Shown here one piece after another: positions 3,280 to 21,639 of a stretch of 64,000 bases of DNA. The position numbers and the translations under genes were made by a program. The stretch spans positions 9,829,001-9,893,000 of the forward strand of contig NZ_CP107902.1 of assembly GCF_036013935.1 (NCBI RefSeq). Direction: 5' to 3'. Source of the DNA: Streptomyces sp. NBC_00461 (GTDB lineage Bacteria > Actinomycetota > Actinomycetes > Streptomycetales > Streptomycetaceae). The notes beneath the pieces are model-generated. The model was given only the letters and a program-made list of their open reading frames with translations, ran no database searches and was not told the DNA's origin. The first letter of the stretch is position 1. Every line of letters starts with the position of its first letter.

Positions 3280-6096
3280 TCACGCCATCTGCCGGCGCAC
3301 CAGCTCGTGCAGCCGCCCGCTCGTGTCCGCCAGCAGCTGCGCGGGCGGGCCCTGCTGGGCGACCTTGCCGTCCTCCATGACGATCACGCGGTCCGCGTCC
3401 AGGACCGTGGACAGGCGGTGCGCGATGACGACGCGGGTGGCGTTGAGGGCCTTCGTGGACTCGATCACCATGCGCTGTGTCTCGTTGTCGAGGGCGCTGG
3501 TCGCCTCGTCGAAGAAGAGGATGCGGGGCCGGCGGATCAACGCCTGCGCGATCATGAGGCGTTGGCGCTGGCCACCGGAGACGGCACCGCTGCCCGACAC
3601 GATCGTGTGCAGGCCCATCGGCATCCGCTTGATGTCCTCGGCGAGTCCCGCCATCTCGGCCGCCGCCATCGCCTCCTCCGGCGTGTACGGCTCGGTGCCG
3701 CAGATGACGTCCAGGATGGAGCCGGTGAAGGGCTGCGCGTGCTGCAGGACCACGCCGCACTGGCGGCGGACGGCCGACTGGTCGAGCGCGCCCAGGTCCT
3801 GGCCGTCGTACAGCACACTGCCCGAGACCGGTCTGTCGAAGCCGATCAAGAGCCTCAGCAGCGTCGACTTGCCGCAGCCGCTGGGGCCGACGATCGCCAC
3901 GAACTCGCCCGGACGTATCGCGAACGACACGTCGTCCAGGACGAGCGGGCCGTCGTCCGAGTACCGGAACGACAGCCGCCGCGCCTCGATCGCGCCGGAC
4001 AGCGGGCCCGGCCGGGTGCTCGCCGTGCGTACCTCAGGCGTCGCCTCCAGCACCGGTTTGATCTCCTCGAACAGCGGCAGCGCGGCCACCGCCGACACGA
4101 ACGCGCCGGTCAGCTGGGTCACCGAGGTCAGCAGCATCGTCACCGAGGTGTTGAACGTGAGGAACGCGGCCGCCGACATCACCCCGCGCGCCGGGCCCGC
4201 CAGCAGCATGAACATCAGCAGGGTGCACAACGGCAGATACACCGCGCCCATCACCGTGGTGAGGTTCTTGATGCGGCCGACCTTCTGCTGCAGTTCACGG
4301 CTGCGGGCGAACTCCGAGGCCCAGGCCGCGTAGGCGTAGTTCTCGGCCGCCGCCACCCGCAGCTTCGGCAGCCCGCGCAGGGTCTGGAACGCCTGGTTGT
4401 TGAGCTTGTTGTTGAGCACCACCAGCTTGCGCTGCCAGCGCACCTGCCACAGGCCCAGGCCCAGGAAGGCACCCGCGATGACGACGAGCATGCCGATCGC
4501 CGCCAGCGCCATCATGGGGCTGTACCAGAACAGCAGCCCCAGGTTCATCGCGCCGACGGTCACCGACTGGGCGACCACGGGCCCGACTCCCGCCATCAGA
4601 CGGCGGATCGAGCTGATGCCCATCGCCGCGCTGGCCAGCTCGCCGGTCGAGCGCTCGGTGAAGAACTTCGTCGGGAGTCTCAGCAGCCGGTCCCAGACGG
4701 CCGGTTGGAGCGTGGCCTCGATACGGCCCTCCATGCGGAGGATGGTGAGGTTCTCCAGCAGCATGAAGGCCGCCGCCACGACGCTGGTGAGCATCACGGC
4801 CAGACAGACCTGGACGATCAGCCCCGTCTGTGCCCTCGGAACGAACTCGCCCAGCACCTTGCCGGTCGCGATGGGCACCAGCGCACCGATCGCCACCGTC
4901 ACCAGACCGCTGATCAGCAGGCTCGCCAGGTCGCCGCCGGTGCCGCGCATGCTGAACCGCAGCAGCCGCAGCGGGCTGAGGGTCCGTTCGGGCAGCGGAC
5001 GGTAGAACATCACCGCACGCGCCTCGAACTCCTCCGCGTTGGCCTTCTCGATCGGTGTCTCGCGGCCCGTCGACGGATGCACGGCCACATAACCGCCGCG
5101 CCGCCACAGCAGGGCCACCGGCGCACCCGACAGGGCCCGGTGGCCCACCAGCGGACCGACGTTGTCCCGCCACCAGCGGCCGTCCAGACGCACGGCCCGG
5201 GTGCGGACACGGGAGGCGATGGCCACGAGCTCCACCGGGTCGAGCCGTTCGCTCTCCGTCCCGCTCTGCGCGGGCTCGGCAAGCTGGATCCCGGCCGCCT
5301 CGGCGACCAGCTTGCACGCCGCGTACGAGGCGTCGGCGTCGGCGGCCGTGGCGCGCTTGCCCGAGGACTTGCCGATCGAGGCGAGCAGCGTCTGATCGGC
5401 CTGGGCGCGGACCGCCTCACCCGCCTTGATGCCGGCGGCCGTCCGTGTCTCGTGCGAGCGCTCCAGCTGCTCGATCCACCGGTCCAGGGTGGTCAGCAGC
5501 CGGTACTGCTGGTCGACCATGCTCTGCCAGACCGCCGGGTCCATCAGCAAGTCGGCGGCCGCCTCGGCGCCGTAGAGCGAGCCGTACTGCACGCTGCCCG
5601 GCGGCACCTGCATCCAGAAGACGTCGTCGTCGGTGACCTCGGCGGCCCGCTCGGTCGCCATCGGCGCCTGGAAGAGGACGGACAGGCTGCGGCCGACACC
5701 GAGGGCGAGGGCGTACTCCAGCGGGCTCGTCGTCGGCGGTACGTACTGGGGGTTGCCGTACTCGTCGTAGGACCAGGTCTGGGTGTCGGCCGTCTGGTAC
5801 AGCTCGCGCAGCCCGATGCGGTGCACCACGCAGTCGCGCAACGGGCGGGCGACCAGGGTGTGCTGCGGTCCCGGGACCGGGCCGAGGATCAGCGAGCCCG
5901 CCTCCAGGCGGCCGAGGTGGTGCCAGTGACCCTGCTGTCCGGCGTCCACCGCGAACAGGTCCAGGCTGCCGGCCGCGACCAGCCACAGCACCTGCGGGCC
6001 TTCGAGGTCGAGCCGGTTCAGGCCCGAGCAGTCGACCAGTGTGCCCATGGAGCCGAGGGCGCCGAGAACGAGGTCGCCCTCGTGTGCGGTCGTCAT
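3280..6096 (-). CDS. NHLM/NHLP-type bacteriocin export ABC transporter, permease/ATPase subunit 2 (938 aa)
   Basis: Second ABC subunit of a peptide-export system. The first roughly 380 residues are a non-catalytic N-terminal region unique to this family (no C39 protease motifs). A six-helix ABC membrane domain follows, then an ATPase with Walker A GPSGCGKST, signature VSGGQRQRL, Walker B ILFFDEATSALD and the H-loop IAHRL. The ATG at 6096 is chosen because it follows the TGA of the upstream subunit by one base and has GGGAGCG before it. Together with the C39 subunit and the HlyD-like adaptor it should move the leader-bearing peptide encoded at 9244-9459 out of the cell. Confidence 0.88.
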   Translation of the reverse strand: MTTAHEGDLVLGALGSMGTLVDCSGLNRLDLEGPQVLWLVAAGSLDLFAVDAGQQGHWHHLGRLEAGSLILGPVPGPQHTLVARPLRDCVVHRIGLRELYQTADTQTWSYDEYGNPQYVPPTTSPLEYALALGVGRSLSVLFQAPMATERAAEVTDDDVFWMQVPPGSVQYGSLYGAEAAADLLMDPAVWQSMVDQQYRLLTTLDRWIEQLERSHETRTAAGIKAGEAVRAQADQTLLASIGKSSGKRATAADADASYAACKLVAEAAGIQLAEPAQSGTESERLDPVELVAIASRVRTRAVRLDGRWWRDNVGPLVGHRALSGAPVALLWRRGGYVAVHPSTGRETPIEKANAEEFEARAVMFYRPLPERTLSPLRLLRFSMRGTGGDLASLLISGLVTVAIGALVPIATGKVLGEFVPRAQTGLIVQVCLAVMLTSVVAAAFMLLENLTILRMEGRIEATLQPAVWDRLLRLPTKFFTERSTGELASAAMGISSIRRLMAGVGPVVAQSVTVGAMNLGLLFWYSPMMALAAIGMLVVIAGAFLGLGLWQVRWQRKLVVLNNKLNNQAFQTLRGLPKLRVAAAENYAYAAWASEFARSRELQQKVGRIKNLTTVMGAVYLPLCTLLMFMLLAGPARGVMSAAAFLTFNTSVTMLLTSVTQLTGAFVSAVAALPLFEEIKPVLEATPEVRTASTRPGPLSGAIEARRLSFRYSDDGPLVLDDVSFAIRPGEFVAIVGPSGCGKSTLLRLLIGFDRPVSGSVLYDGQDLGALDQSAVRRQCGVVLQHAQPFTGSILDVICGTEPYTPEEAMAAAEMAGLAEDIKRMPMGLHTIVSGSGAVSGGQRQRLMIAQALIRRPRILFFDEATSALDNETQRMVIESTKALNATRVVIAHRLSTVLDADRVIVMEDGKVAQQGPPAQLLADTSGRLHELVRRQMA

Positions 6097-6097
6097 C

Positions 6098-8320
6098 TCA
6101 TCGCTCCCTGACCAGCGCCGCGTACGCGCCACCGCGCGTCACCAGCTCCTCGTGCCGTCCGCGTTCCACGATCGTGCCGTGCTGGAGCACCACGATCTCG
6201 TCGCTGTCGCGCACGGTGCTGAGCCGGTGCGCGATCACCACGCAGGCGCAGCCGCGCCGGCGCAGGTTGTCCATCACGACCTGTTCCGTCTCCGCGTCCA
6301 GGGCGCTCGTCACCTCGTCGAGCACCAGGATGCTGGGCCTGCGCACCAACGCCCTCGCGATCTCCAGGCGTTGACGCTGCCCGCCGGAGAAGTTGCGGCC
6401 GTCCTGCTCGACCTTGCTGTGGATGCCGCCGGGGCGGCGCGTCACGACGTCGTGGAGCGCCGCGTCCCGCAGCGCGTCCACGACGGCGTCGTCGGGAATC
6501 GAGGGATCCCACAGGGCGACGTTGTCGCGGACCGAGCCCTCGAACAGGAAGACCTCCTGGTCCACGAAGGAGACGGACGCCGCGAGCGCGCCGCGCGGGA
6601 TGTCGTCCAGGCGCCGGCCGTCGATGCGGATCACGCCTTCCCAGGGGGTGTACAGGCCCGATATCAGGCGGGAGACCGTGGACTTGCCGCTGCCGGATCC
6701 GCCCACGAGGGCGACCTGTTGGCCGGGGCCGACGGTCAGGTCGAAGCCGGTGAGCAGCGGCTTGTCGAGCGGGTTGTAGCCGAAGGTGATGTTCTGCAGT
6801 TCGACGTGACCGTGCAGGCGGCGCGTGGAGTCGCCGGCGCCGGGGCGGCCGTAGAGCGGGTCGGCCTGGAAGTTCTCGACGTCCTTCAGACGGGCCACGT
6901 CGGCGGCGAAGTCCTGGATGCGGCCCGCCACGCCGTTGAGCCGGGTGATCGGTGCGGTGAAGCGCGTGACCAGGGCCTGGAAGGCGACCAGCAGACCCAC
7001 CGAGATGCCGCCCTCCACCGCGCGCATGCCACCGATCCACAGGATCAGCGCGCTGTTCAGCGCGGCCAGCGTCGGCGCGACCACACCCAGCCAGGCGCTC
7101 GGCACACCGAGCCGCTGCTGCTCCTCCAGCGTGGTGGCATGCTGCCCCGCCCACTTCCGGAAGTAACCGTCCTCACCGCCGGTCGCCTTCATCGTCTCGA
7201 TCAACTGCAGCCCGGTGTAAGCGGTGTTGGTGAGCCGCGCGCTGTCCGCGCGCAGCTTCGCCGTCCGGGTCGCGCGCAGGCGGATGACGACGCGCATCGC
7301 GACGATGTTCAGCAGGGCCACGCCGATGCCGAGGAACGTGAGCTGCGGGTCGTAGGTGTAGAGGAGGACCGCGTAGAGAACGACGACCACCGCGTCGACG
7401 CCCGCCGCCGCCAGGTCGCGGGCCAGGGTCTCGGCCACGGCGTCGTTGGACTGCAGTCGCTGTACCAGGTCGGCCGGGCTGCGCTGGGAGAAGAACGTGA
7501 CGGGCAGCCGCAGCAGATGCCGCAGGAACCGGGCGCTGGAGAGGGTGGAGGAGATGATGCGGCCGCGCAGCAGATTCGCCTGCTGCAGCCAGGTCAGCAC
7601 GATCGTGAGCAGCACGGACGCGCCCATCGACGCGAACAGCACGCCGAGCAGCGAGGTCTGCCCGCCGATCAGGAACTCGTCGATGTAGGTCCGGCTGAGC
7701 GCCGGCACGGCCGCGCCGACCGCGACCAGCAGCAGGCTCGCCAGGACCGCGGCGGGCATCGTGCCCGCGGTGCCGCGCAGCCGGGCCGGCATCGCGCCGA
7801 GCACACCGGGCCTGCGGCCGCCCTTGGTGAAGCCCTCGCCCGGCTCCATCACCAGCACCACACCGGTGAAACTGCCGTCGAAGTCCTCCATGGGCACGAA
7901 ACGACGGCCCTTGCCGGGGTCGTTGATGTAGACCCCGCGGCGGCCGAAGCGGCGCCCCATGCCGTCGTAGACGACGTAGTGGTTGAACTCCCAGAACAGG
8001 ACGGCCGGCGTCTTCACCTCGGCGAGGGCGGCCGTGTCCATCTGCATGCCCTTGGCGGTGAGGCCGTAGCTGCGGGCCGCCTTCAGCAGGTTGCTGGCGC
8101 GCGAGCCGTCGCGGGAGACACCGCACGCGATGCGCAGCTCCTCCAGCGGGACGTGCTTGCCGTAGTGGCCGAGGACCATCGCGAGGGAGGCGGCGCCGCA
8201 CTCCACCGCCTCCATCTGGAGCACCGTGGGAGTGCGGACGGTCCTCGCCCTGCCCACGGGAACGGGACGCTTGGGCGGAGCGGCGCGCCGCCTGCTCCGC
8301 GTCTCCTGTGCGGTGCTCAC
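6098..8320 (-). CDS. NHLM/NHLP-type ABC transporter with C39 leader peptidase (740 aa)
   Basis: Processing exporter. The N-terminal C39 cysteine protease is intact: Cys41 in LQMEAVECGAASL, His114 in EFNHYVVYDG and Asp134 in INDPGKG. A six-helix exporter domain follows (about 170-460), then an ATPase with GGSGSGKST, FSGGQRQRL and ILVLDEVTSALD. This enzyme class cuts leader peptides after a double glycine while exporting the core. The GTG at 8320 overlaps the stop of the adaptor gene (GTGA), which indicates translational coupling. The obvious substrate is the GG-leader peptide two genes upstream. Confidence 0.92.
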   Translation of the reverse strand: MSTAQETRSRRRAAPPKRPVPVGRARTVRTPTVLQMEAVECGAASLAMVLGHYGKHVPLEELRIACGVSRDGSRASNLLKAARSYGLTAKGMQMDTAALAEVKTPAVLFWEFNHYVVYDGMGRRFGRRGVYINDPGKGRRFVPMEDFDGSFTGVVLVMEPGEGFTKGGRRPGVLGAMPARLRGTAGTMPAAVLASLLLVAVGAAVPALSRTYIDEFLIGGQTSLLGVLFASMGASVLLTIVLTWLQQANLLRGRIISSTLSSARFLRHLLRLPVTFFSQRSPADLVQRLQSNDAVAETLARDLAAAGVDAVVVVLYAVLLYTYDPQLTFLGIGVALLNIVAMRVVIRLRATRTAKLRADSARLTNTAYTGLQLIETMKATGGEDGYFRKWAGQHATTLEEQQRLGVPSAWLGVVAPTLAALNSALILWIGGMRAVEGGISVGLLVAFQALVTRFTAPITRLNGVAGRIQDFAADVARLKDVENFQADPLYGRPGAGDSTRRLHGHVELQNITFGYNPLDKPLLTGFDLTVGPGQQVALVGGSGSGKSTVSRLISGLYTPWEGVIRIDGRRLDDIPRGALAASVSFVDQEVFLFEGSVRDNVALWDPSIPDDAVVDALRDAALHDVVTRRPGGIHSKVEQDGRNFSGGQRQRLEIARALVRRPSILVLDEVTSALDAETEQVVMDNLRRRGCACVVIAHRLSTVRDSDEIVVLQHGTIVERGRHEELVTRGGAYAALVRER

Positions 8321-9123
8321 GGCAGCAGCCAATCGACGGGACGCTGATCGGCCAGCCGGATGGAACCCGAGGCCAGGGTCATGGAGGTGAGGTCGAACGG
8401 CGGCCCGTCCTTGGACGACCACCGGTAACCGCTCTTCGTCGCTGACGACTTGTCCAGGCGGACTAGTACGGCGACCGGGCGGCCCGACTTGGTGAACTGC
8501 TCGCCCAGCTGGCTGTCCCCGAGGAACGAGGCGATCTGCTGGGCCGACTGGGCCGAGCGGTCCACCGACTTCACATGGCCGCGCAGCACGCCGTACGTCT
8601 GCGTCGGCACCGACGAGACGGTCAGGTCCACGGCGGCGTTCGCGGGAATGGAGGCCGCGTTCTCGGCGGGGACGTAGACCGTGGCGTAGAGGGGATCGTC
8701 GGCCTTGGCGACCTTCTCCACCGCGGCGACGTTCGCGCCGGTCTGGATGATCTGGCCGATGGTGGCGGCGAGTCCCGTGATCCGGCCCGCCGCGACCGTG
8801 CGGACGACGGTGGCGCCCTGGCTCGTACGGACCTTGAGCACCGGGGAGTCGGCCGGCAGCCGCTCGCCCTGCCTGGCCAGCACGGCGGTCACCTGGCCCG
8901 CGACCGGGCTCTGCAGGATGTAACTGCCCTCACCGTGCGTGAGGATGGCGGGCGCGCCGACCGTGGAGGTCACCGAACCGGTCACCGCCCACACCGAGGC
9001 GGCCGCCATCGCGACCACCGTCACGGACAGCACGAGCCAGCCCTGGGGGCGGGCGAAACGCACCGGAAGGTCGAGCTCCTCCGGCGACTGGAGCTTGGCG
9101 AGGGCTTGCTGGCGGAACTGCAC
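8317..9123 (-). CDS. HlyD/NHLM-family secretion adaptor (268 aa)
   Basis: Membrane-fusion/adaptor protein of the peptide exporter. It has a short cytoplasmic N-terminus, one membrane helix (about residues 28-50, GWLVLSVTVVAMAAASVWAV), then an extracytoplasmic biotinyl-lipoyl-like half (LQSPVAGQVTAVLARQGERL) and a beta-barrel region. It is short compared with Gram-negative HlyD, as expected without an outer membrane. The GTG at 9123 is selected over the upstream ATG because it has GAGGGAAG five bases upstream and places the membrane helix normally. It follows the precursor gene after an intervening hairpin. Confidence 0.85.
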   Translation of the reverse strand: MQFRQQALAKLQSPEELDLPVRFARPQGWLVLSVTVVAMAAASVWAVTGSVTSTVGAPAILTHGEGSYILQSPVAGQVTAVLARQGERLPADSPVLKVRTSQGATVVRTVAAGRITGLAATIGQIIQTGANVAAVEKVAKADDPLYATVYVPAENAASIPANAAVDLTVSSVPTQTYGVLRGHVKSVDRSAQSAQQIASFLGDSQLGEQFTKSGRPVAVLVRLDKSSATKSGYRWSSKDGPPFDLTSMTLASGSIRLADQRPVDWLLP

Positions 9124-9194
9124 GGAACTTCCCTCACCTGAAAACGAGAGAGGACCGGCTCGCACGAGCCGGCTGGTTTGTGGCAACCGAAGGC

Positions 9195-9219
9195 CCCGGA
9201 GCCGTATGACGGCTCCGGG
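9195..9219 (-). terminator. Hairpin directly after the precursor peptide gene (attenuator/partial terminator)
   Basis: CCCGGAGCCGT and ACGGCTCCGGG form a perfect 11-bp stem with a 3-base loop, without a T-tract. Lying between the precursor gene (ends 9244) and the adaptor start (9123), it probably trims read-through so that the peptide is made in excess over its exporter. Confidence 0.65.
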
Positions 9220-9243
9220 ACGCGACGATCACAAAAGGTGCGA

Positions 9244-9459
9244 TCAGAGACCGGCGACCAGGCCCGTGACCGGGGCGGTGTTCAGGCCGGTGACACCCTC
9301 GATGGTGCCGACGGCCGTGTCGACCAGACCGGAAACGGGAGCAATGCCGTCCAGCGCACCGGTGGCGGTGTTGACCGCGTTCACCGAAAGACCGCCGGAG
9401 ACGTTGTCGAGCTCGGCGTCAGAGATCTCGACGGTCTCAACACGGGGGGTGGAGTTCAT
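9244..9459 (-). CDS. Double-glycine leader peptide precursor, cysteine-free core (71 aa)
   Basis: The N-terminal 23 residues look like a C39-processed leader: acidic, with EISDAELDNVSGG ending in a Gly-Gly site. Cleavage would release a 48-residue core (from Leu24) rich in Gly, Val, Thr, Ala and Leu. The core has no Cys, Lys or Arg, three acidic residues, and an imperfect internal repeat APV-S/T-GLV at 40-46 and 62-68. Lacking Cys, it cannot form lanthionine rings. It has a good AAGGGAAG ribosome site and is the first gene of the exporter operon. The product may be an unmodified bacteriocin-like or surface-active peptide, or may be altered by an enzyme encoded elsewhere. Relatives are, as I recall, sometimes annotated as type A2 lantipeptides, which the composition does not support. 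Confidence 0.8.
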   Translation of the reverse strand: MNSTPRVETVEISDAELDNVSGGLSVNAVNTATGALDGIAPVSGLVDTAVGTIEGVTGLNTAPVTGLVAGL

Positions 9460-9940
9460 GATGGAACTTCCCTTCGTATGGGTATTTCACAAGGGGGGAG
9501 CGGCCCCCCTCTGGGGACAGAGCGACGGCCGCGAACCGCGAGCGCCGGGCGCCCGTTTCCAGGAACCCTTCGCGGCCCCCGCGGTGCGATGGATCAAAGC
9601 ACGCGGCGGGCCCGCGCTTCCAATCAACCAGGCGTCTCACCAGGCAACTTGGATCTCAGGGGCACCGAACGGTGCAGGTGTGCGCACGGCACGGCGGCGA
9701 GTTCTTCACATGCGCCACCGCATTGGTCCGTCCATGGCCTTGCCGCGGTGTCGACGAATCCGACACTCCCGTCCCAATGACGTAGCGGGCGCCCTCGTGG
9801 TGTGCAGATCCTTCGCCCGCGGTGACTTGGTTGCGTATTGGATGTGCAGATTCACTGAAGCCGGGATTCCGATCGATGTTCTGAACAGACCGTTGCCGAT
9901 CGACTGCGGACCGTGTCAGCCCCGTAATGCCTGGGCCGTG
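9460..9940. other. 481-bp intergenic region upstream of the precursor gene
   Basis: No convincing gene is seen. Next to the precursor it holds a 7-bp stem (AGGGGGG/CCCCCCT, 9492-9510) in the presumed 5' leader. Further out it becomes less GC-rich around 9820-9900. It must contain the promoter of the exporter operon, but no clear -35/-10 pair could be assigned. Confidence 0.5.
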
Positions 9941-10354: not shown

Positions 10355-10544
10355 ATGAGCGATTGTTCCCCGCGCCGATTCGTCAGGCACGGGTCATGGC
10401 CGATTCGGCATCGGGCAAAGCGAGTTGGCAAACGGAATTGAACGCACCGCGGGGCCCGTGCGTACCAACAGCCATCCAGGCGCCCGAACAGAACAGCTGC
10501 CGGACGGCGGCACAGACTCCGGTCCCCCCAGGAGGTCGAGAAGC

Positions 10545-12005
10545 TTGAGTCACAAGCGAATTCCGAAGCGCAAGGCCGCGATCGCGGCAGGCAGCGTCGT
10601 GGCGCTCGGCGCAGCCGCAATCCTGCTGCCGAACGCCAACGCGTCGCAGGACGGCTCGTCGGCCGACGCCGCCCCCAAGACCCTGAAGGCGACCGACGCA
10701 TCGGATCTCGCCTCGCAGCTTCAGGACATGCTCGGTCAGGCCTTCGCCGGGTCGTACTACGACTCCGACAAGCAGCAGCTGGTCGTCAACGTCATATCCG
10801 GCGACAAAAACGTTGTCGTCCAGGCGAAGAAGGCGGGCGCGAAGGTCCGCGAGGTCGGCAACAGCCTCGCCGCGCTGAAGGCGGGCGCACAGACCCTGAA
10901 GGCGAAGGCGACCATCCCGGGCACGGCCTGGGCGGTCGACCCGAAGACCAACAAGCTCGCGGTCACCGCCGACAGCAGCGTGACCGGCGCCAAGTGGGAC
11001 AGACTGACGTCGACGGTCAAGAGCCTCGGCTCCGAGATGGCGACCGTGAAGAAGTCCTCCGGCACCTTCAAGACGCTCGTGTCGGGCGGCGACGCCATCT
11101 TCGCGCAGGCGGAGGGCGGCACCGTGCGCTGCTCCCTCGGCTTCAACGTGACCGCCAGCGACGGCAGTCCGGCCTTCCTGACCGCAGGCCACTGCGGTGT
11201 GGCCGCCAAGCAGTGGTCCGACTCCGAGACCGGGCAGCCCATCGCCACCGTCGACCAGGCCACCTTCCCGGGCAACGGCGACTTCTCGCTGGTGAAGTAC
11301 GACGACGCGAACACCCAGGCGGCGAGCGAGGTCAACACCGGCGAGGGCCAGGCCGTCCAGATCACCCAGGCCGCGGAGGCCACCGTCGGCGAGCAGGTCT
11401 TCCGCATGGGCAGCACGACCGGCCTGCACGACGGCACGGTCACCGGTCTCGACGCCACGGTCAACTTCCAGAGCGAGACCGACCCGGGTGGTGTCGACAC
11501 GGTCACCGGTCTCATCCAGACGGACGTCTGCGCCGAGGCCGGCGACAGCGGTGGCTCCCTGTTCACGCAGGACGGCGGCGCGGTCGGTCTGACCTCCGGC
11601 GGCAGCGGTGACTGCACCAACGGTGGCGAGACCTTCTTCCAGCCGGTCACCGCCGCCCTCCAGGCCACGGGTGCGACGCTCGGCGGCGCGGGTGCGGGCG
11701 CCGGCGACCAGGCCGGCACCGCCGATCCGTCCGCCTCCGCGGGCGACCAGGCGGGCGGCGGCGACGCCGTCGGTGGCGGCGACCAGGCCGGCACGGCGGA
11801 CCCGTCCGCGACGGCCGGCGACCAGAACGGAGCCGGTGACCAGGCAGGGGCCGGTGACCAGTCCGGCGTCGGCGACCAGTCCGGCGCCGGTGCGGGTGAC
11901 CAGTCCGGTGCAGGTGCAGGTGCCGGTGACCAGTCCGGTGCTGGTGCGGGCGACCAGAGCGGTGCCGGCGTGGGCGACGGTTCGTCCCAGACCGAGACCC
12001 ACTGA
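10545..12005 (+). CDS. Secreted S1-family (streptogrisin/alpha-lytic-like) serine protease with C-terminal repeat tail (486 aa)
   Basis: A secreted endopeptidase. A TTG start at 10545, nine bases after AGGAGG, gives a Tat/Sec-like signal (KRIPKRK then a hydrophobic stretch) with a likely Ala-X-Ala cut after residue 33. A propeptide-like region of about 150 residues follows. The catalytic domain has His216 (LTAGHCG), Asp246 (NGDFSLV) and Ser335 (AGDSGGS), with Cys pairs around the His and Ser. From about residue 381 to the end, the protein is a low-complexity Gly/Ala/Asp/Gln tail of GDQ-S/A-GAG repeats, unusual for the family and perhaps a wall-spanning or carbohydrate-sticking linker. A strong terminator follows. 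Confidence 0.9.
   Translation: MSHKRIPKRKAAIAAGSVVALGAAAILLPNANASQDGSSADAAPKTLKATDASDLASQLQDMLGQAFAGSYYDSDKQQLVVNVISGDKNVVVQAKKAGAKVREVGNSLAALKAGAQTLKAKATIPGTAWAVDPKTNKLAVTADSSVTGAKWDRLTSTVKSLGSEMATVKKSSGTFKTLVSGGDAIFAQAEGGTVRCSLGFNVTASDGSPAFLTAGHCGVAAKQWSDSETGQPIATVDQATFPGNGDFSLVKYDDANTQAASEVNTGEGQAVQITQAAEATVGEQVFRMGSTTGLHDGTVTGLDATVNFQSETDPGGVDTVTGLIQTDVCAEAGDSGGSLFTQDGGAVGLTSGGSGDCTNGGETFFQPVTAALQATGATLGGAGAGAGDQAGTADPSASAGDQAGGGDAVGGGDQAGTADPSATAGDQNGAGDQAGAGDQSGVGDQSGAGAGDQSGAGAGAGDQSGAGAGDQSGAGVGDGSSQTETH
11685..11985 (+). repeat. Imperfect tandem repeats encoding GDQxGAG motifs
   Basis: The last 300 bases of the protease gene are built from degenerate short units around GGTGACCAGTCCGG, encoding (A)GDQ(S/A)GAG. 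The copies are imperfect and vary in spacing in multiples of three, so the frame is preserved. Such tracts often vary in length between strains. Confidence 0.75.
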
Positions 12006-12127: not shown

Positions 12128-14272
12128 TCAGGCCTGCGTACGGGCCCTGAGCAGCAGCAACGCCACGTCGTCGAGGCGTTCCCTGGCTGCCGCGCTGTGC
12201 TGTACGAGATAGTCGGCGAGCTCGTCCAGGGGCAGCTCCCCGGCTTCGGCGAGCCGCTGGCCGAGTCCGGCGAGCGCGTCCTCGATGTCGATGCCGGGTG
12301 ACTCGATCAGCCCGTCCGTGTAGAGGGCGAGCACGGAACCGGGCGCGAGGTCGACCTGCGTCGTCGGATAGACGGCCGAGGCGTCGATGCCGAGGAGCGG
12401 GCCACCGGCGAGATCGAGCACCCGCACCCGGCCGTCGGGACGGCGCAGCAGCGGCGGCGGATGACCCGCCCGGGCCATCACGGCCCGCCCGCGCGCGGGA
12501 TCGAGACGCAGGTACAGGCAGCTGGCGAACAGCTCGGCGCCGAGGTCGATGAGCAGCCGGTTCGTGCTGCGCATGACCTCCTCGGGCGCCTGTCCGACGG
12601 TCGTGTAGGCACGAACGGCGGTGCGGATCTGCCCCATCAGCCCGGCCGCGGTCACGTTGTGCCCCTGCACGTCCCCGATCACCGCCGCGGCCACGCCCTG
12701 TGTGGGGACCAGGTCGTAGAAGTCGCCGCCGATCTCCATGCCGTCGGTGGCGGGCAGATAGCGGGAGGCCGCGTCGATGCCGGGCAGCGTCGGCAGCGAG
12801 TGCGGCAGCAGAGCGGCCTGCAGCCCGTGGGCCAGCTGGTGCTTGGCGTCGTAGAGCAGAGCCCGCTCCAGCGCCTGCGCGATCAGACCGCCCAGGCTGG
12901 TCAGCACCGCCCGCTCGTCCGCGGGGAACGGGTGCGGTTCGGCGTAGGCGAGCACACACGTGCCCACCGGGCGGCCTGAGGCGATCAACGGCAGATAGGC
13001 CCAGGCCTCGAAGCCGTCCGGCGTGGCGAGCCTCGACCGGTACACACGCTCCAGCTGCTCCCGAGAGTCGAAGAACGCCGGAACCCCGGTGTTCAGGGCG
13101 TTCGTGCCCGGTGTCGGCTCCGACAGCGGAAGCCCGTCGAACCGCTCCACGACGCTCGCGTCCGGATACCCGTGGTGCCCCAGCACATGCAGCCGCCCCG
13201 CCCGCGAGCCGAGCACCACGAGAGCCTGGCTGCCCGCGGCCGGCGCGACCTCGTTCGCCACCAGCTGCACCACGTCCTGCACCCCCACCGCCTCGGTCAG
13301 CGCACCGGCCAGGGTCAGCACCTGCGAAATGGTGACCAGCCGGGCCGGGGCGTCGCCGGGCTGCGGACCGGCCCGGTTCATCTCCGCCACCGCCCGCGCC
13401 CGCGTGACCCGGACACTGAGCCCGGTCGTGCTGGGATACATCCGGAACGACAGCCAGTTCCCGGGCGGCCGCACCGCCACGAACGACGTGGTGTGCTGGC
13501 TGAGCAGCGCGGCCCGGTAGCGGTCCTCGTACACCGGGTCGTTGAGCCAGGGCACCGACGCCCACAGCTGGGTGCCCAGCAGTTTGCTGACCGGGAGCCC
13601 GATCAGCTCGGCCGCCGCCGCGTTGGCGAAACAGACCCGCCCGTGCAGATCGAGCGAGCACAGCCCGTACGGCAGCCGTGCCACCATCCGCGCCGCCTCC
13701 ACCGTGCCGAGCGTGCCGGCCGCGCCACCCACCGGCGGAACGCCGAGCAGATCGGGTTCGTGCAGCAGCGGAAGACTGTCCTCGAGGGCGCGCTCCAGCC
13801 GGATGGCGAGCCGGTCGCAGGCCGCGGTCAGATGATCCCGCTCCCGCTCGGACAGCTCGGGCGGATGTGCGCCTGGCCAGGTCACGAAGACCGCGCCGTA
13901 CGCCGTCGACTCCGTCGCCACCGGCAGGGCGGCAAGCGCGAAGGGGTACGGCAGCACGACGGCGATGCGCGGATAGCGGCGCGCCATCTCCTCCTCGCCG
14001 CCCACCCACACCAGCCGCCGCGTGCGCACCGCCTCGGCGACCGGGATCGGCGCGCTGAGCCCCACCCGCTCCCACGGCGCGGCGAAGGCCCGGGGCAGCC
14101 CCGCCATCACGGCCATCTCCAGGACCGGTTCGCGGGGCGCCAGCAGATACACCGCGCCGGAGTGCGCGTGGACGTCGTCCATCATCGACGCCAGAGCAAG
14201 GGACAGCAGCGGACGGCCCACACGCGTCCGCGCGGCCGCCGGAGCCTGTGCGGACGTCTGCGCGTCGGACAC
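12128..14272 (-). CDS. SpoIIE/RsbU-type PP2C serine phosphatase with GAF and PAS sensor regions (714 aa)
   Basis: A multi-domain signalling phosphatase. It has an N-terminal GAF-like region (about 15-165), a PAS-like segment (about 190-290, LPYGLCSLDLHGRVCFANAAAAELIG), a second GAF (about 320-480) and a C-terminal PP2C/SpoIIE domain (about 490-714) with MEIGGDFYDL, VIGDVQGHNVTAAGLMGQ, and ALYTDGLIESPG carrying the metal-binding Asp residues. Such enzymes dephosphorylate anti-sigma antagonists. No kinase domain is present, unlike the relative at 21640. The GTG at 14272 is eight bases after GAGG; the one nine bases upstream overlaps the ribosome site. It is divergent from ramR. Confidence 0.88.
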   Translation of the reverse strand: MSDAQTSAQAPAAARTRVGRPLLSLALASMMDDVHAHSGAVYLLAPREPVLEMAVMAGLPRAFAAPWERVGLSAPIPVAEAVRTRRLVWVGGEEEMARRYPRIAVVLPYPFALAALPVATESTAYGAVFVTWPGAHPPELSERERDHLTAACDRLAIRLERALEDSLPLLHEPDLLGVPPVGGAAGTLGTVEAARMVARLPYGLCSLDLHGRVCFANAAAAELIGLPVSKLLGTQLWASVPWLNDPVYEDRYRAALLSQHTTSFVAVRPPGNWLSFRMYPSTTGLSVRVTRARAVAEMNRAGPQPGDAPARLVTISQVLTLAGALTEAVGVQDVVQLVANEVAPAAGSQALVVLGSRAGRLHVLGHHGYPDASVVERFDGLPLSEPTPGTNALNTGVPAFFDSREQLERVYRSRLATPDGFEAWAYLPLIASGRPVGTCVLAYAEPHPFPADERAVLTSLGGLIAQALERALLYDAKHQLAHGLQAALLPHSLPTLPGIDAASRYLPATDGMEIGGDFYDLVPTQGVAAAVIGDVQGHNVTAAGLMGQIRTAVRAYTTVGQAPEEVMRSTNRLLIDLGAELFASCLYLRLDPARGRAVMARAGHPPPLLRRPDGRVRVLDLAGGPLLGIDASAVYPTTQVDLAPGSVLALYTDGLIESPGIDIEDALAGLGQRLAEAGELPLDELADYLVQHSAAARERLDDVALLLLRARTQA

Positions 14273-14608
14273 GCCGACCACCTCCTCGCACGGCCGGGTG
14301 ACGGGTTCCAGGGACTAAATCTGCCCCTTGGCGGCCCGTCGCGCACGGCGAGCGGTGAGGCGACGTCACACCCGGTACGCAGAACGGGCGCAGCACAGTA
14401 CCCGGCACGGTGAGAACCACCGCGTACCCCTTCGGCCGCGGACCATGCCCCCTCAGCCGATGCGCAGGGTGGTGCACGGGTTGCCGGGCGTGCGCCCCCA
14501 CGCACCGCATTGGCCGGATCTTCGCGCCCCAGCGCGGTCGCGGACGCGAAGAATGGGCACGCGTTCACCACCAATCAGACCGGCGGACGGAAAGCTGAGG
14601 GGCGGGCA
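14273..14608. other. 336-bp divergent regulatory region between the phosphatase gene and ramR
   Basis: No gene is seen. It must hold the promoters for both divergent genes. No -35/-10 pair stands out. A loose TTCGCG...CGCGAA dyad lies at about 14521-14550. Control sites for ramR would be expected here. Confidence 0.4.
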
Positions 14609-15217
14609 GTGATCCGGGTACTTCTGGTGCACGACGAGTGTCTGGTGCGATCGGTGCTGGCGCAGTGGCTGCGCGGTGAACCCGATCTCCGAGTGGAGGA
14701 CGCGCCTTGGCGCAGCGCGCCGGGCCGGGCGCGGTCCCTGTGGCCCGATGTGTGCGCCGTGGACCTGGAGTGCGCGGACGCGTACGGCATCGCACCGCTC
14801 GGCGACCTGTGCTCCCGGGGCCCGGACGCGGCCCCACCGAGACTTCTCGTGCTCGCCAGTGCGAACAGACCCGGCCTGCTGAAACGTGCCATCGAGGCGG
14901 GCGCGCTCGGCTACGTCGACAAGGAGGGGTCGCCGGATCATCTGGTGCGCGGAATCCGGCGGGTCGCCCAGGGGGAACGTTTCGTCGACGACTCCCTGGG
15001 CTTCGGTTTCCTCAAGGCCGCCGAGATGCCGCTGACCCGGCGGGAGCTGAGCGTGTTATCCCTCGCCGCCGAGGGGGCCTCCGTCGCGGAGATCGCCGGG
15101 AGCCTCCATCTGTCCCACGGGACGGTGCGCAACTACATGGCGGCCATCACCCGAAAGACCGGGGCCCGCAACCGCATCGACGCGATCCGCATCTCCCAGG
15201 GGGAGGGCTGGCTGTGA
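14609..15217 (+). CDS. ramR: RamR-type response regulator, activator of the ram cluster (202 aa)
   Basis: NarL/FixJ-type regulator. The receiver domain (1-120) has the acidic pair in VHDE (Asp9/Glu10), the phospho-acceptor Asp52 (AVDLE) and Lys105 (GYVDKEG). The LuxR-type HTH (about 138-200) reads LTRRELSVLSLAAEGASVAEIAGSL followed by SHGTVRNYMAAITRKTGARNR. The GTG at 14609 follows GAGGGG and gives the usual RamR/AmfR length. It sits convergent to ramCSAB as in other streptomycetes and should bind the ramC promoter. Codon 150 is TTA (15056-15058), so translation probably needs the bldA leucyl-tRNA. Its last 162 bp overlap the ramB reading frame on the other strand. Confidence 0.88.
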   Translation: MIRVLLVHDECLVRSVLAQWLRGEPDLRVEDAPWRSAPGRARSLWPDVCAVDLECADAYGIAPLGDLCSRGPDAAPPRLLVLASANRPGLLKRAIEAGALGYVDKEGSPDHLVRGIRRVAQGERFVDDSLGFGFLKAAEMPLTRRELSVLSLAAEGASVAEIAGSLHLSHGTVRNYMAAITRKTGARNRIDAIRISQGEGWL

Positions 15218-16927
15218 CGGCACGGGCGTCCAGCCGCCGACCAGCTCCCGGTACAGCGGCGAGGTCTCCAGCAACTCCCGGTGGGTTCCGCACGCCGTGC
15301 CCCGTCCGTCCATGACCAGCACCCGATCCGCGCGCCGGGCGGAGCTGATGCGGTGCGCCACGACGACGAGGGTGCCGCCCGGTCGCCGCGCGAAGGCCCG
15401 CTCGGCGCGTTCCTCCGCCTGCGGATCCAGATGACAGGTCGCCTCGTCGAGCAGGGCGAGCGGGGCGTGCGACAGATAGGCCCGGGTCAGCGCGATCAGC
15501 TGACGTTCGCCCGCTGAGAGCGCCGCCGGGTCGACTCGGGCGCCGGGTCCGCCGAGCGCGTCGAGCAGCGGGCCGAGCCCCACCGCGTCGGCCGCCGCGC
15601 GCAGCTCCGTCTCCGACACGGGGTCCTGCCGCAGATGGGTGAGGTTGTCCGCGACGGTGCCGGTGAAGACGTACGCCTCCTGGGGGATGAGCACCCGCTG
15701 CCGGGCCGCAGCGGCGGACGGCACCGCCTCCCCGCCCACCCGGATCGTGCCCCGACGCGGTTCCAGCAGCCCCGCGACGAGAGCGGCGAGCGTGGACTTG
15801 CCGATGCCGCTGGGGCCGACGACGGCCAGGTGGGAGCCGGGGGGAAGGGTGAGGCCGAGGTTGTCGATGACGGGGACGGCAGTGGGGCTGTAGGCGAAGG
15901 TCAGGGAGGTGAGGGAGAGGGCGGGGGTGCGGGCGATGCCGGGGGTGTGCGGGGTGGGGTGGTGGCGCTGAGCGGGAGGTCCCTGCTTGTCGCCGCCGGG
16001 TGCCGGGGGCGACGTCAGTCGACGTAGGACCACGGTCAGACGTGAGCCGCTCGTGCCCAGGCCGTGAACCAGGTTGCGGAGGGCCGGGAGGAGGGACTGG
16101 GTGAGGTAGGCGAGGGCGCCGACCACGGCGCCCGTGGTGACACCGCGGGCCAGCAGCCAGGGTGCGGCGGCGAGCAGCAGCACGATCGGGAACTGGCCGC
16201 CGATCGCGAGCGACGCCACGCGCAGCACGCCCCAGCGGGCAAGGGAACGGGCGGCCCGCAGTTCGGCGTCGATGTGTTCCCCCGCGTCGGCGGCGACGCG
16301 TTCCTCGGCGCCCGCGGCCGTGATGTCCCGCAGCCCCGGGCAGACGTCACCCAAGCGCCCGGCCAGCGCCTCGTCCGCGACGAGGAACGCCTCCTGCCTG
16401 CGGGCCAACGGCCGTAGCGACGCCGCGAACAGGGCCACCCCGGCCAGGAGCGGCGGCCCGACCACCAGCACGAGCGGCGGGGCGAGCGATAACAGCCCGA
16501 CCAGCGCCCCCACCGCGGTGAACACGAACGACCGCGACACCATCACGAGCCCCGCGAAGGTGTCGCGCGCGATCTCCACCTGCTGGGTGAGCGCCGACAG
16601 CACCCCGTCGTCGGCCTCCCGGACACCCCGCTCGACCACGCCCTCCACGAGGCGGTCCCGGAGGGGTTCGGCCAACGCGGCGACGCCGGCGTAGACCCGC
16701 CCGGTCCCCACCGCACCCACCACGACAGCGAGCCCGGCCACCGCGAGCCAGGCGAGCCCGACATCGGCGCGTCCCGCCAGGAACCCCGCGTCGAGGGCCC
16801 GCGCCGGGGCGTACCCGGTGACAAAGGTCTGCCCGGTCTCCAGCACGGACCAGCCCCCGAGTCGTACGACGACGCCCCGGCGCGCCCACAGGAACCGGGC
16901 ACCCCGCACCCGGATCCCCCCGCTCAC
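15056..16927 (-). CDS. ramB: RamB-type ABC exporter of the SapB-like lanthipeptide (623 aa)
   Basis: Half-transporter with a six-helix membrane domain (about 15-310) and an ATPase (about 360-570): Walker A GPSGIGKST, signature LSAGERQLIAL, Walker B LALLDEATCHLD and H-loop VAHRI. The GTG at 16927 overlaps the ramA stop (GTGA), so the two are translationally coupled and probably form a heterodimer. Codon 146 is TTA. After the normal end of the ATPase (ELVGGW) the frame continues about 56 residues antisense to ramR before its TAA stop, giving an unusual Gly/Asp/Pro-rich tail. No earlier in-frame stop exists. Confidence 0.85.
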   Translation of the reverse strand: MSGGIRVRGARFLWARRGVVVRLGGWSVLETGQTFVTGYAPARALDAGFLAGRADVGLAWLAVAGLAVVVGAVGTGRVYAGVAALAEPLRDRLVEGVVERGVREADDGVLSALTQQVEIARDTFAGLVMVSRSFVFTAVGALVGLLSLAPPLVLVVGPPLLAGVALFAASLRPLARRQEAFLVADEALAGRLGDVCPGLRDITAAGAEERVAADAGEHIDAELRAARSLARWGVLRVASLAIGGQFPIVLLLAAAPWLLARGVTTGAVVGALAYLTQSLLPALRNLVHGLGTSGSRLTVVLRRLTSPPAPGGDKQGPPAQRHHPTPHTPGIARTPALSLTSLTFAYSPTAVPVIDNLGLTLPPGSHLAVVGPSGIGKSTLAALVAGLLEPRRGTIRVGGEAVPSAAAARQRVLIPQEAYVFTGTVADNLTHLRQDPVSETELRAAADAVGLGPLLDALGGPGARVDPAALSAGERQLIALTRAYLSHAPLALLDEATCHLDPQAEERAERAFARRPGGTLVVVAHRISSARRADRVLVMDGRGTACGTHRELLETSPLYRELVGGWTPVPSQPALPLGDADRVDAVAGPGLSGDGRHVVAHRPVGQMEAPGDLRDGGPLGGEG

Positions 16928-18630
16928 GTCGGCCCCCCGTCCCCGAACGCCGCCCGGTACCCGGCGATCCGCAACAGCTCCGCATGCGTCCCCACCGCCC
17001 GCACCCTCCCCCCGTCCAGCCACGCCACCGCGTCCGCCCGGGCCGCCGTGGCCGCTCGATGGGCGATGAGGAGTCGGGTGCCGCCCGCGCCGTGGGCCAT
17101 CAGGGAGTCCGTGATCTGTGCTTCCGTCACCGTGTCGAGGCTGGAGAGGGCGTCGTCGAGAATGAGCAGGCGGCTGTCCTGGGCGAACGCCCTCGCCAGG
17201 CCAAGGCGTTGGGACTCGCCGCCGGAGCGCGGGGCGTCGGCGCAGCGGGTGGCGTAGCCGTGGGGAAGGCGGCGGATGAAGTCGTTCGCCCGTGCCGTGC
17301 GGGCCGCCTCGCGGATGCGTGCGGGGGAGGGATGCCGCACGCCGAGGCGCAGCGCGTCCTCGATGGTGGTGCCGAGGAGCGCGGGGCGTTCGAAGGCGTA
17401 ACTCACCGACCGGCGAAGGTCGTTGTGGGTCAGATGGGGGAGGGGGACGCCGTCCAGCAGGACCTCTCCGGCGTCCGGGTCGGCCAGCCGGCCGGCGATC
17501 GCGGCGAGAAGCGACTTGCCCGTGCCGGAACGGCCGACCACGGCGAGTGTCGTGCCGCCCGGGACGACGAGGTCGAGGCCGTCGAGGACGGTGCGCTCGC
17601 CGCGGCGGGCCGTCACGCCCCGCAGCTCCAGTCGGCCCGGACCGGGCGGCAGCCGGCGTGTACCGTGCGCGATGGCCGGCTGAGCGAGGACCTCGTCGAG
17701 GCGCCCGGCGGCCGCCCTGCCCCGGGCCAGGCTCGCGAACTGGCCGACCAGCACGCCGACGCCCGTCGCCAGGACCGCGTACCGCGAGGCCGCGAGGACG
17801 TCGCCGACCGACAGCCGATGCCGGGTGAGGAGAACTCCGGCCACGGCGACGACCCCCAGCTGCAGCAGTGGCGCCACGGCGCCCGCCAGGGCCGCGGCCC
17901 GTCCCTGGACCCGCCACATGAGGTGTCCCGCACGCGACAGCTCCGGCAGCGGCCGCAGAATCCGCGCCGCCTCCTTGTCCGCCGTGCCCGCCGCCTCGAT
18001 GGTGCGGCGGCCGGCGACCGCCTCCGCGAGCGCGCCCGCGATCCGCCCCTGGAGCCGCTGGTAGTCCGCCACGCACCGGGTCGTGTCGCGGGCGAAGGCG
18101 CGCAGCAGGAGGGTCAGGACCGGTGCTCCGGCCAGGAACACGGCCGCCAGCCACGGGTCGATCAGGCCGAGCGCCACGATGCCCCCCACAGGACCGGCGA
18201 GCGCGGCGAGCAGTGCGGCGCGGGCGGCCGGAGTGGTCCCCGCCTGAGCCGCGTTGCCGACGAGACGGGCGACGAGTTCGCCCGGGCCGAAGCGGGCGGC
18301 TGCGCGCGGCCCCACGGCCAGCACATGCCCTGTCAGGCGGCGCCGCAGCCACGCGGCCGTCCGGGCGTCGACGGTGCCGCCGAGCACGGTCTCGCAGGCG
18401 TCCAGCAGCGCCGGCAGCAGGACGATTCCCGCGCAGTACACCACCCAGCGGGTCGCCGGGGCGTGTGCCAGGAGGAGGTCGAGGGTGCGGCCGAGAGCGG
18501 CCGGCAGGAGGAGACCGGCACCGGTGGACGCCGTGCTCATGAGACAGAGGGCCACGCAGCGGGAAGTGCTGTGCCGGGTGGCCGAGTCGAGCAGGGCGGA
18601 GCGGCGTACGGGCTCTGCATGAGTCGTCAC
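16924..18630 (-). CDS. ramA: RamA-type ABC exporter of the SapB-like lanthipeptide (568 aa)
   Basis: Half-transporter: a six-helix membrane domain at about 10-290 and an ATPase at about 330-560 with Walker A GRSGTGKS, a slightly degenerate signature RSGGESQRL, Walker B LLILDDALSSLD and H-loop IAHR. In Walker B the usual catalytic Glu is replaced by Asp (LDDALS), hinting at an asymmetric pair in which RamB (LLDEATC) keeps the canonical site. The GTG at 18630 has GAGG eight bases upstream and starts the hydrophilic N-terminus expected for the family. It is downstream of ramS after a hairpin. Confidence 0.87.
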   Translation of the reverse strand: MTTHAEPVRRSALLDSATRHSTSRCVALCLMSTASTGAGLLLPAALGRTLDLLLAHAPATRWVVYCAGIVLLPALLDACETVLGGTVDARTAAWLRRRLTGHVLAVGPRAAARFGPGELVARLVGNAAQAGTTPAARAALLAALAGPVGGIVALGLIDPWLAAVFLAGAPVLTLLLRAFARDTTRCVADYQRLQGRIAGALAEAVAGRRTIEAAGTADKEAARILRPLPELSRAGHLMWRVQGRAAALAGAVAPLLQLGVVAVAGVLLTRHRLSVGDVLAASRYAVLATGVGVLVGQFASLARGRAAAGRLDEVLAQPAIAHGTRRLPPGPGRLELRGVTARRGERTVLDGLDLVVPGGTTLAVVGRSGTGKSLLAAIAGRLADPDAGEVLLDGVPLPHLTHNDLRRSVSYAFERPALLGTTIEDALRLGVRHPSPARIREAARTARANDFIRRLPHGYATRCADAPRSGGESQRLGLARAFAQDSRLLILDDALSSLDTVTEAQITDSLMAHGAGGTRLLIAHRAATAARADAVAWLDGGRVRAVGTHAELLRIAGYRAAFGDGGPT

Positions 18631-18674
18631 GGCTGCGGCCTCGCATCCGGATCGGTGGGACCGCGCCCAGGACC

Positions 18675-18711
18675 CCGGGCGGCCCCTCCCTCGCGGGAGC
18701 GGACCGCCCGG
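18675..18711 (-). terminator. Hairpin between ramS and ramA (attenuator/partial terminator)
   Basis: CCGGGCGG...CCGCCCGG outer arms of 8 bp, with an inner stem CTCCC/GGGAG, form one strong structure around a short GCGA loop. Located 23 bp after the ramS stop and 44 bp before ramA, it would make ramS mRNA more abundant than ramAB. Confidence 0.7.
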
Positions 18712-18733
18712 AGCCGTGAACGCACGATGCTCG

Positions 18734-18853
18734 TCAGAGACAGAGCAGAATGCTCGCCGCGCTGATGCAGGAGAGCAGGCTGACGGTGCTTGCGCCACCG
18801 CCGCCGCCGGTGTGTTCGTCGGACTCCATCGTCTGCAGGTCGAGCAGTGCCAT
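18734..18853 (-). CDS. ramS: SapB-like class III lanthipeptide precursor RamS (39 aa)
   Basis: Precursor of a morphogenetic lantibiotic-like peptide. The leader begins MALLDLQTMES, matching the L-x-D-L-Q recognition motif read by class III synthetases. The C-terminal part, ASTVSLLSCISAASILLCL, contains two S-x2-S-x3-C units (Ser22-Ser25-Cys29 and Ser31-Ser34-Cys38), the same spacing as in SapB, each able to form a labionin or lanthionine ring. A Gly5 stretch (16-20) precedes the core. The core is more hydrophobic than SapB as I know it. The ribosome site AAAGGA is six bases from the ATG. It lies between ramC and ramA as in other ram/amf clusters. Confidence 0.9.
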   Translation of the reverse strand: MALLDLQTMESDEHTGGGGGASTVSLLSCISAASILLCL

Positions 18854-18926
18854 CTCGTGTCCTTTCATCGATGTCCACCCGTGGGGACGGGGTTGCGTCA
18901 CGACTCCGTCAGGTTGCGGAGCCGCG

Positions 18927-21506: not shown

Positions 21507-21639
21507 GCGTTCCCCTCCGTGGCCCGGCATCGACACTTCCAGTCGACCCGCGGTCGCGGACAGTCACGTCTGTCACGAGATCACCGTGCGGTACGCATGC
21601 GTAAAGACATGTTCGGCGAATTTCGAGTGGACCCGCACG
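21507..21639. promoter_or_regulatory. ramC / SpoIIE-phosphatase divergent control region
   Basis: This short shared region should hold the RamR-dependent ramC promoter. It contains a perfect 12-bp palindrome TACGCATGCGTA (21592-21603), a dyad GACAG-N6-CTGTC (21559-21574) and a direct repeat GTCACG at 21563 and 21572 (9-bp period). Which of these RamR or other developmental regulators use cannot be told from sequence. Confidence 0.5.

Follow-up and report, generated by a model that had tools for sequence, protein, structure and literature searches.

Class II bacteriocins leave the cell through an ATP-binding cassette (ABC) transporter with a C39 peptidase domain and an accessory protein; their precursors carry a double-glycine (GG) leader, which is removed by C39 cleavage, and the product is expected to be unmodified. 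Streptomyces also export SapB, a small hydrophobic peptide whose precursor RamS contains Cys and has a synthetase, RamC. The present analysis concerns a four-gene operon of Streptomyces sp. NBC_00461, located in a stretch of 64,000 nucleotides (G000:C1:9829001-9893000, the window) of the 10.37-Mb single-contig genome. It resembles both systems, encoding a small hydrophobic GG precursor, then a short HlyD-like adaptor, a C39 exporter and a second ABC subunit, with ram genes nearby. It departs from the bacteriocin systems in having two ABC genes, in the anionic character of its core, in a common upstream element that marks dispersed precursors and in a wide distribution within one genus, and from RamS in that its precursor has no Cys. 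We consider it likely that this one exporter serves its linked precursor together with dispersed, co-regulated and probably unmodified precursors encoded elsewhere.

On gene order and description, with no alignment to SCO0753 involved, the operon is the counterpart of SCO0753-0756 of S. coelicolor, an equation also made because an exopolyphosphatase-type gene lies downstream in 44 of 101 related loci, like SCO0757 in PMC6629963. In the passages of that paper available to us, SCO0753 is described as hydrophobic and free of Cys, some 70-odd residues long and encoded upstream of an HlyD/ABC/ABC secretion operon of conserved gene order. It is the most overexpressed gene (>60-fold) under the activated Sco5282 kinase, and it is almost silent, together with the transport genes, in the null mutant. 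The S. coelicolor strain in which SCO0753 heads the overexpressed genes shows dispersed instead of clumped growth, and the authors already compare the peptide with SapB (PMC6629963). Excerpts of a second study report that mutation of aor1 makes SCO0753 climb along with two genes of the SapB cluster (PMC5733086).

The exporter families found here, TIGR03794, TIGR03796 and TIGR03797, are those of the NHLP/Nif11 cassette, for which the relevant portions of PMC2887384 give between one and 12 copies of NHLP in a genome and name the three-gene cassette as the sole other high-scoring family in a profile search. The present system differs in that its precursor has no NCBIfam or Pfam match to an NHLP or Nif11-derived leader at E <= 1, its core is not Cys-rich, its operon has no modification enzyme and its HlyD protein is short. 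Since up to 12 NHLP copies are linked by profile to one cassette, the principle of several precursors per exporter has a precedent; what would be new relative to it are the probably unmodified cores and the shared element. The portions of PMC6629963 at hand deal with a single peptide and are silent on orphan precursors with a common leader and on any common promoter element, and the open-licence literature, as far as its excerpts reach, yielded no account of dispersed co-regulated precursors under one exporter in Streptomyces. The operon is known in outline; the set of orphans sharing its leader, and the shared element, are new.

The precursor and its export machinery

The four genes lie closely spaced on the minus strand, with a 4-nt overlap of the HlyD gene with the C39 gene and 1 nt between the C39 and second ABC genes (Table 1). 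Start codons are our own choice; that of the precursor, giving 71 amino acids (aa), is supported by conservation of the ribosome-binding region GAAGGGAAG. The leader ends in VSGG at residue 23 and is followed by a 48-residue core devoid of Cys, Lys and Arg; the core has a grand average of hydropathy (GRAVY) of +0.92, a calculated isoelectric point of 4.05 and a calculated average mass of 4448 Da. With 631 homologues at E <= 1e-3, its existence is beyond chance. Among the best 120 of these, 118 have a 48-residue core, and in the single Cys-bearing homologue the Cys sits in a long C-terminal extension. A predicted structure gave a mean pLDDT (predicted local distance difference test) of 57 and a pTM (predicted template modelling score) of 0.24.

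Relatives were compared across 101 exporter loci, comprising the 80 named contigs closest to this exporter, 20 picked for carrying a precursor, and the window. Their precursors span 71-75 aa; among 83 distinct exporter-linked sequences none contains Cys and one has Lys or Arg in the core. Gene order is identical in all 101 loci, a sample biased by selection for closeness or precursor, so that co-occurrence across genomes is the better test. In leader alignment A1, whose 23 rows were chosen for this leader, G22, G23, E11 and D14 are invariant. TIGR01847 scored 13.2 bits on the precursor, under its cut-off of 15.7, and matches to pheromone and FapA families (E 0.002-0.004, far under cut-offs) were taken as noise. 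The ratio of non-synonymous to synonymous substitution rates over 82 precursors (0.42 in the leader, 0.59 in the core) would suggest mild constraint only, both values being probably distorted by codon bias.

The C39 exporter matches TIGR03796 with 1024 bits (cut-off 853) and Peptidase_C39 at E 4e-35, retains Gln35, Cys41, His114 and Asp134 as well as its ATPase motifs, and is the single Peptidase_C39 match in the whole genome. The second ABC subunit reaches 896 bits with TIGR03797 (cut-off 709) and has Walker A and signature motifs. For the HlyD-like protein, 268 aa long against a 421-position model, TIGR03794 is the best family at 142.5 bits, below the cut-off of 156.2. These results bear out the initial annotation of this stretch, which had described from the DNA letters a 71-aa precursor with a VSGG leader end and a 48-residue core lacking Cys, Lys and Arg, an HlyD-like adaptor, a C39 exporter in which Cys41/His114/Asp134 are intact, and another ABC subunit of NHLM type, all co-directional and tightly spaced. 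Its proposal that cleavage after Gly23 releases an anionic, Gly/Val-rich peptide agrees, as a prediction, with the catalytic residues and the core composition.

The hairpin it placed behind the precursor was likewise recovered: the gap between precursor and HlyD genes (9124-9243) contains two, and the stretch 9138-9243 has a folding energy of -50.8 kcal/mol (z -5.3). In many relatives the stem of hairpin 1 carries compensating changes (GGAGCC/GGCTCC, GGAACC/GGTTCC, GGAGTC/GACTCC), the pairing being judged by eye, unscored, on 40 hairpins; hairpin 2 is missing in some of the relatives among them. Hairpin 1 could be a partial terminator or an RNA stabiliser. A hairpin at this place may reduce expression of the genes that follow, which fits the S. 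coelicolor data because, in the part of PMC6629963 concerned, SCO0753 rises under the activated kinase by log2 6.3 and SCO0754-0756 by 4.25-4.4.

Orphan precursors and their co-occurrence with the exporter

A search of the genome with the whole precursor returned a second ORF (open reading frame) at E 6e-4, and the genome holds two leader ORFs at E <= 0.01. This orphan has 13 related proteins at E <= 1e-3; those that bear names are called hypothetical or bacteriocin-like, except for one called a lipoprotein. Its neighbours include transglutaminase-like and protein-kinase genes. The operon had been called self-contained and its peptide the product of one dedicated machine, which proves too narrow: another precursor, with a leader of the same type and the same element, lies 592 kb away, in a genome with a single Peptidase_C39 match.

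The A1 profile was searched against 199 Streptomyces genomes at E <= 0.01, and genomes were counted as exporter-positive with a match at E <= 1e-100. Leaders were detected 224 times in 144 genomes and the exporter in 149 genomes; both occurred in 143, the leader only in one, the exporter only in six and neither in 49 (Fisher p about 1e-38, shared ancestry ignored). The sole leader-only genome (G001) is 79% complete, in 630 contigs. As for the exporter-only genomes, the exporters of G028, G038 and G188 are 49-57% identical to ours, those of G058 and G100 score weakly and that of G120 is a 76% identical copy with an internal stop. One leader match was found in 80 of the 144 leader-positive genomes and two to five in 64; the whole precursor matched in 126 of the 199.

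Among 150 Streptomycetaceae genomes, which overlap with the 199, a close exporter was present in 71 and accompanied by a leader in 70 (G275 lacks one). All 74 leader-positive genomes of this sample have an exporter match, only 59-60% identical in four of them, and the 29 genomes with distant exporters are devoid of leaders. Leaders occur in 9 of the 17 genera sampled. A class-level sample of 296 genomes, with few candidates scored per genome, gave 22 positives in one genus only. Four genomes of genus g5 (G202, G217, G227, G233) carry two weak leader matches separated by a few hundred bases; in the first three an exporter of 59% identity lies at a distance of about 5-6 kb, whereas in G233 leaders and exporter are on different contigs; these are perhaps a tandem-precursor variant.

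Exporter genes were absent from 38 orphan stretches of 4-18 kb each, in which only two short ATPase-domain similarities were seen. A sequence pattern recovered the peptide from 34 of them (none from L127, L132, L133 and L135, of which L133 and L135 nevertheless grouped with class A). By their cores, 15 of the peptides belong to class A, five to class B and 14 to neither. All 34 cores have 42-56 aa, a GRAVY of +0.3 to +1.3 and a net charge of -2 to -4, and Cys occurs in three of them. No neighbour family other than the peptide itself recurs in more than seven of the 38 loci, the commonest being DUF397, DUF5753/helix-turn-helix regulators, FAD/NAD oxidoreductases, histidine phosphatases, major facilitator superfamily (MFS) proteins and cellulases.

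An element shared by linked and orphan precursors

Alignment of 98 distinct regions upstream of linked precursors revealed a common block, GCGTGCTTTGATCCaTCGCACCGC. The element GTGCTTTGATC precedes 16 of the 34 orphans exactly, 25 with at most one mismatch and 33 with at most two, whereas before 173 other genes of the same loci, taken from our own simple gene calls, it was found in no case with at most one mismatch and in two with at most two. Class A orphans have further upstream DNA in common and may be duplicates; exact GTGCTTTGATC also stands before 12 of the 14 other orphans, whose upstream DNA is otherwise different.

A scan of the 199 genomes for exact GTGCTTTGATC, which is only a partly independent test, located 216 sites in 127 genomes; 195 of them fall in the 144 leader-bearing genomes, 109 of which have at least one. 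A reversed control pattern was rarer still, and contains CTAG, which makes it a poor control. Among 150 exact sites listed, 76 sit 42-142 bp upstream of a listed leader ORF on the same strand. Twenty of the remaining 74 were checked: 14 precede no leader ORF and six precede further ones (L257, L258, L259, L263, L267, L268), including a class MAFTPQIQTA... that is absent from the 34. The genome of strain NBC_00461 has three exact copies, two of which precede the leader-bearing precursors of the operon and the orphan. GTGCTTTGATC is a putative promoter element.

Genomic neighbourhood

Table 1. Features of the operon, its surroundings and the second precursor (positions in the window unless a contig is given)
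Feature	Position	Strand	Basis or remark
Precursor peptide, 71 aa, leader MNSTPRVETVEISDAELDNVSGG and 48-aa hydrophobic anionic core	9244..9459	-	Homology and sequence properties
Conserved ribosome-binding region GAAGGGAAG	9467..9475	-	Upstream alignment of relatives
Shared element GTGCTTTGATC, 132 nt upstream of precursor start	9592..9602	-	Putative promoter role
Hairpin 1, precursor-HlyD gap, 13-bp stem	9193..9221	-	Paired changes in many relatives
Hairpin 2, precursor-HlyD gap	9154..9173	-	Folding
Short HlyD-like adaptor, 268 aa	8317..9123	-	Family profile
NHLM-type C39 peptidase/permease/ATPase exporter, 740 aa	6098..8320	-	Family profile and catalytic residues
Second NHLM ABC permease/ATPase subunit, 938 aa	3280..6096	-	Family profile, Walker A and signature motifs
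Serine protease, alpha-lytic prodomain and trypsin domain, divergent from precursor	10425..12005	+	Homologue upstream in 83/101 exporter loci
PAS/GAF/SpoIIE phosphatase beside protease	12128-14281	-	Clustered homologue near operon in 65/101 loci
LuxR-type regulator of ram cluster	14510-15217		Part of ram cluster
ram cluster including ABC-transporter ORFs	14510-21536		About 5 kb from operon
RamS-like ORF, 39 aa	start 18853	-	ram cluster
RamC_N protein	18927-21536		RamC_N domain
Orphan precursor, 76 aa, MNLASQVETTEMSDAEMENVSGG/LGLGDL...	G000:C1:9245864-9246094 (L048:8865-9095)	+	Leader and shared element; 592 kb from operon

Several neighbour clusters, operon genes excluded, have at least 35 members in the 101 exporter loci. 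Besides the serine protease, a possible processing partner, and the SpoIIE/PAS/GAF phosphatase, they comprise subtilisin inhibitor (51), Ppx/GppA (44), haem-oxygenase-like (44), methyltransferase (44), MFS (39) and AHSA1 (35) genes. Genes of the methyltransferase and haem-oxygenase-like clusters are located past the operon, and neither cluster has a member in this window. Rarer clusters include a CDGSH iron-binding protein (33) and one without a Pfam match (31). The ram cluster announced about 5 kb away is indeed present, with LuxR-type, ABC, RamS-like and RamC_N ORFs. The surface role guessed from it fared in two ways: a SapB-like role has already been suggested in print for SCO0753, but ram linkage is not general, as ramA/C-like genes occur in 33 of the 70 exporter loci with enough upstream flank and the S. 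coelicolor SapB genes are numbered SCO6682-85 in the excerpt of PMC5733086.

Modification and alternative explanations

The precursor is labelled 'type A2 lantipeptide' by NCBI, as are many of its best 120 homologues among the 631. Available excerpts show the same name given to a protein whose genomic region also contains a Peptidase_C39 gene (PMC13047742), and SCO0753 as an earlier predicted lanthipeptide (cited in PMC6629963). A class II lanthipeptide modified by an unlinked LanM, or a peptide whose Ser/Thr are modified by the nearby RamC before export, would accord with these names, with a weak resemblance to the type A lantibiotic leader PF04604 (13.5 bits, cut-off 21.7), with the RamC_N protein and with the seven Thr and two Ser of the core. 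We nevertheless regard such modification as highly improbable, and the class II form was rejected, given 83 precursors free of Cys, no LanM and no modification gene among the identified neighbours. The LanM domain DUF4135 has no match in the genome at E <= 0.001; it is present in 55 of the 199 genomes, only 34 of these being among the 143 with exporter and leader, which leaves 109 without it and gives no positive association (odds ratio 0.52, p 0.08). A ramA/C-like gene is near in under half of the loci with sufficient flank. A modification gene hidden beside the operon was also discarded: no known peptide-modification family is among the identified recurring neighbours of the 101 loci, most of the rarer ones being left unidentified. 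The same goes for one beside the orphans, as no neighbour family there exceeds 7 of 38 loci. The initial annotation was right that the operon has no dedicated modification enzyme, and the conserved modification gene it proposed to seek in relatives is not among the neighbour families identified; the lack it considered unusual is the rule in this Streptomyces clade. The NCBI label is not supported, and the peptides are probably unmodified.

Two alternatives accept unmodified cores. An ordinary class II bacteriocin operon, whose core inhibits competitors and whose orphans are independent relics or duplicates, would explain the exporter architecture and the bacteriocin-like names that some sources give to orphan relatives. 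It appears distinctly unlikely for an anionic core without Lys or Arg, a precursor found in 126 of 199 Streptomyces genomes and a locus with no immunity-like gene among its identified recurring neighbours; relics, moreover, would not be expected to retain both leader and element amid varying neighbours and cores. The cores might instead be signals, perhaps trimmed by the adjoining serine protease and sensed by the producer. Against this, the identified recurring neighbours include no receptor kinase, and hydrophobic cores of 42-56 residues exceed the usual length of a pheromone. A conserved core, the presence of a protease gene upstream (83 of 101 loci) and two-component control in S. coelicolor (in the passages of PMC6629963) speak for signalling, which we judge rather unlikely on balance.

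Several observations weigh against a single exporter for linked and dispersed precursors. The 11-base form of GTGCTTTGATC was picked after inspecting linked and orphan regions; 35 of the 144 leader-bearing genomes have no exact copy, 18 of the 55 leader-less ones do (21 copies), and the five class B orphans carry it only with 2-3 mismatches. The third exact copy in the genome, G000:C1:5764124-5764134 (L273), is followed by no leader ORF. (The sequence around it largely recurs in L254 and L265.) Genome counts are uncorrected for shared ancestry, the leader threshold of E <= 0.01 may let in chance matches, and G119 and G180 were counted as exporter-positive although their exporter reading frame is broken or shifted. 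The class III synthetase RamC, encoded 9.5 kb upstream, or enzymes other than LanM from elsewhere in the genome might still modify the peptides. Finally, SCO0753 is printed as 77 aa in the part of PMC6629963 at hand, longer than the relatives found here.

We still favour one exporter with several precursors. The operon would be an NHLM-type C39 machine that cuts and exports short, hydrophobic, negatively charged and probably unmodified peptides, carrying its own precursor and one or a few orphans coded elsewhere in the genome. Because orphans and operon agree in leader type and in promoter element, they would be made together. The C39 domain is predicted to strip the leader after Gly-Gly, and both ABC subunits, aided by the short HlyD protein, would move the core out of the cell, where it would act most likely at the hyphal surface or in the matrix. 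That the cores alter this surface or matrix is a guess, based only on the published expression of SCO0753.

Biological implications

More tentatively, and with somewhat less confidence than doubt, we envisage a Streptomycetaceae-wide regulon in which unmodified, anionic and hydrophobic surface peptides, one of them linked and several unlinked, must all pass through one C39/NHLM exporter and are switched on by one promoter element, yielding species-specific coat or matrix mixtures beside SapB and chaplins. The findings argue against the automatic 'type A2 lantipeptide' label on many Streptomyces proteins, and suggest that leader and promoter element together can reveal small orphan ORFs at present called 'hypothetical'. 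If one exporter does serve the whole peptide set, deletion of this single gene would remove all the peptides at once, and whether they act in the aggregation of hyphae, in aerial growth or in signalling could be tested directly.

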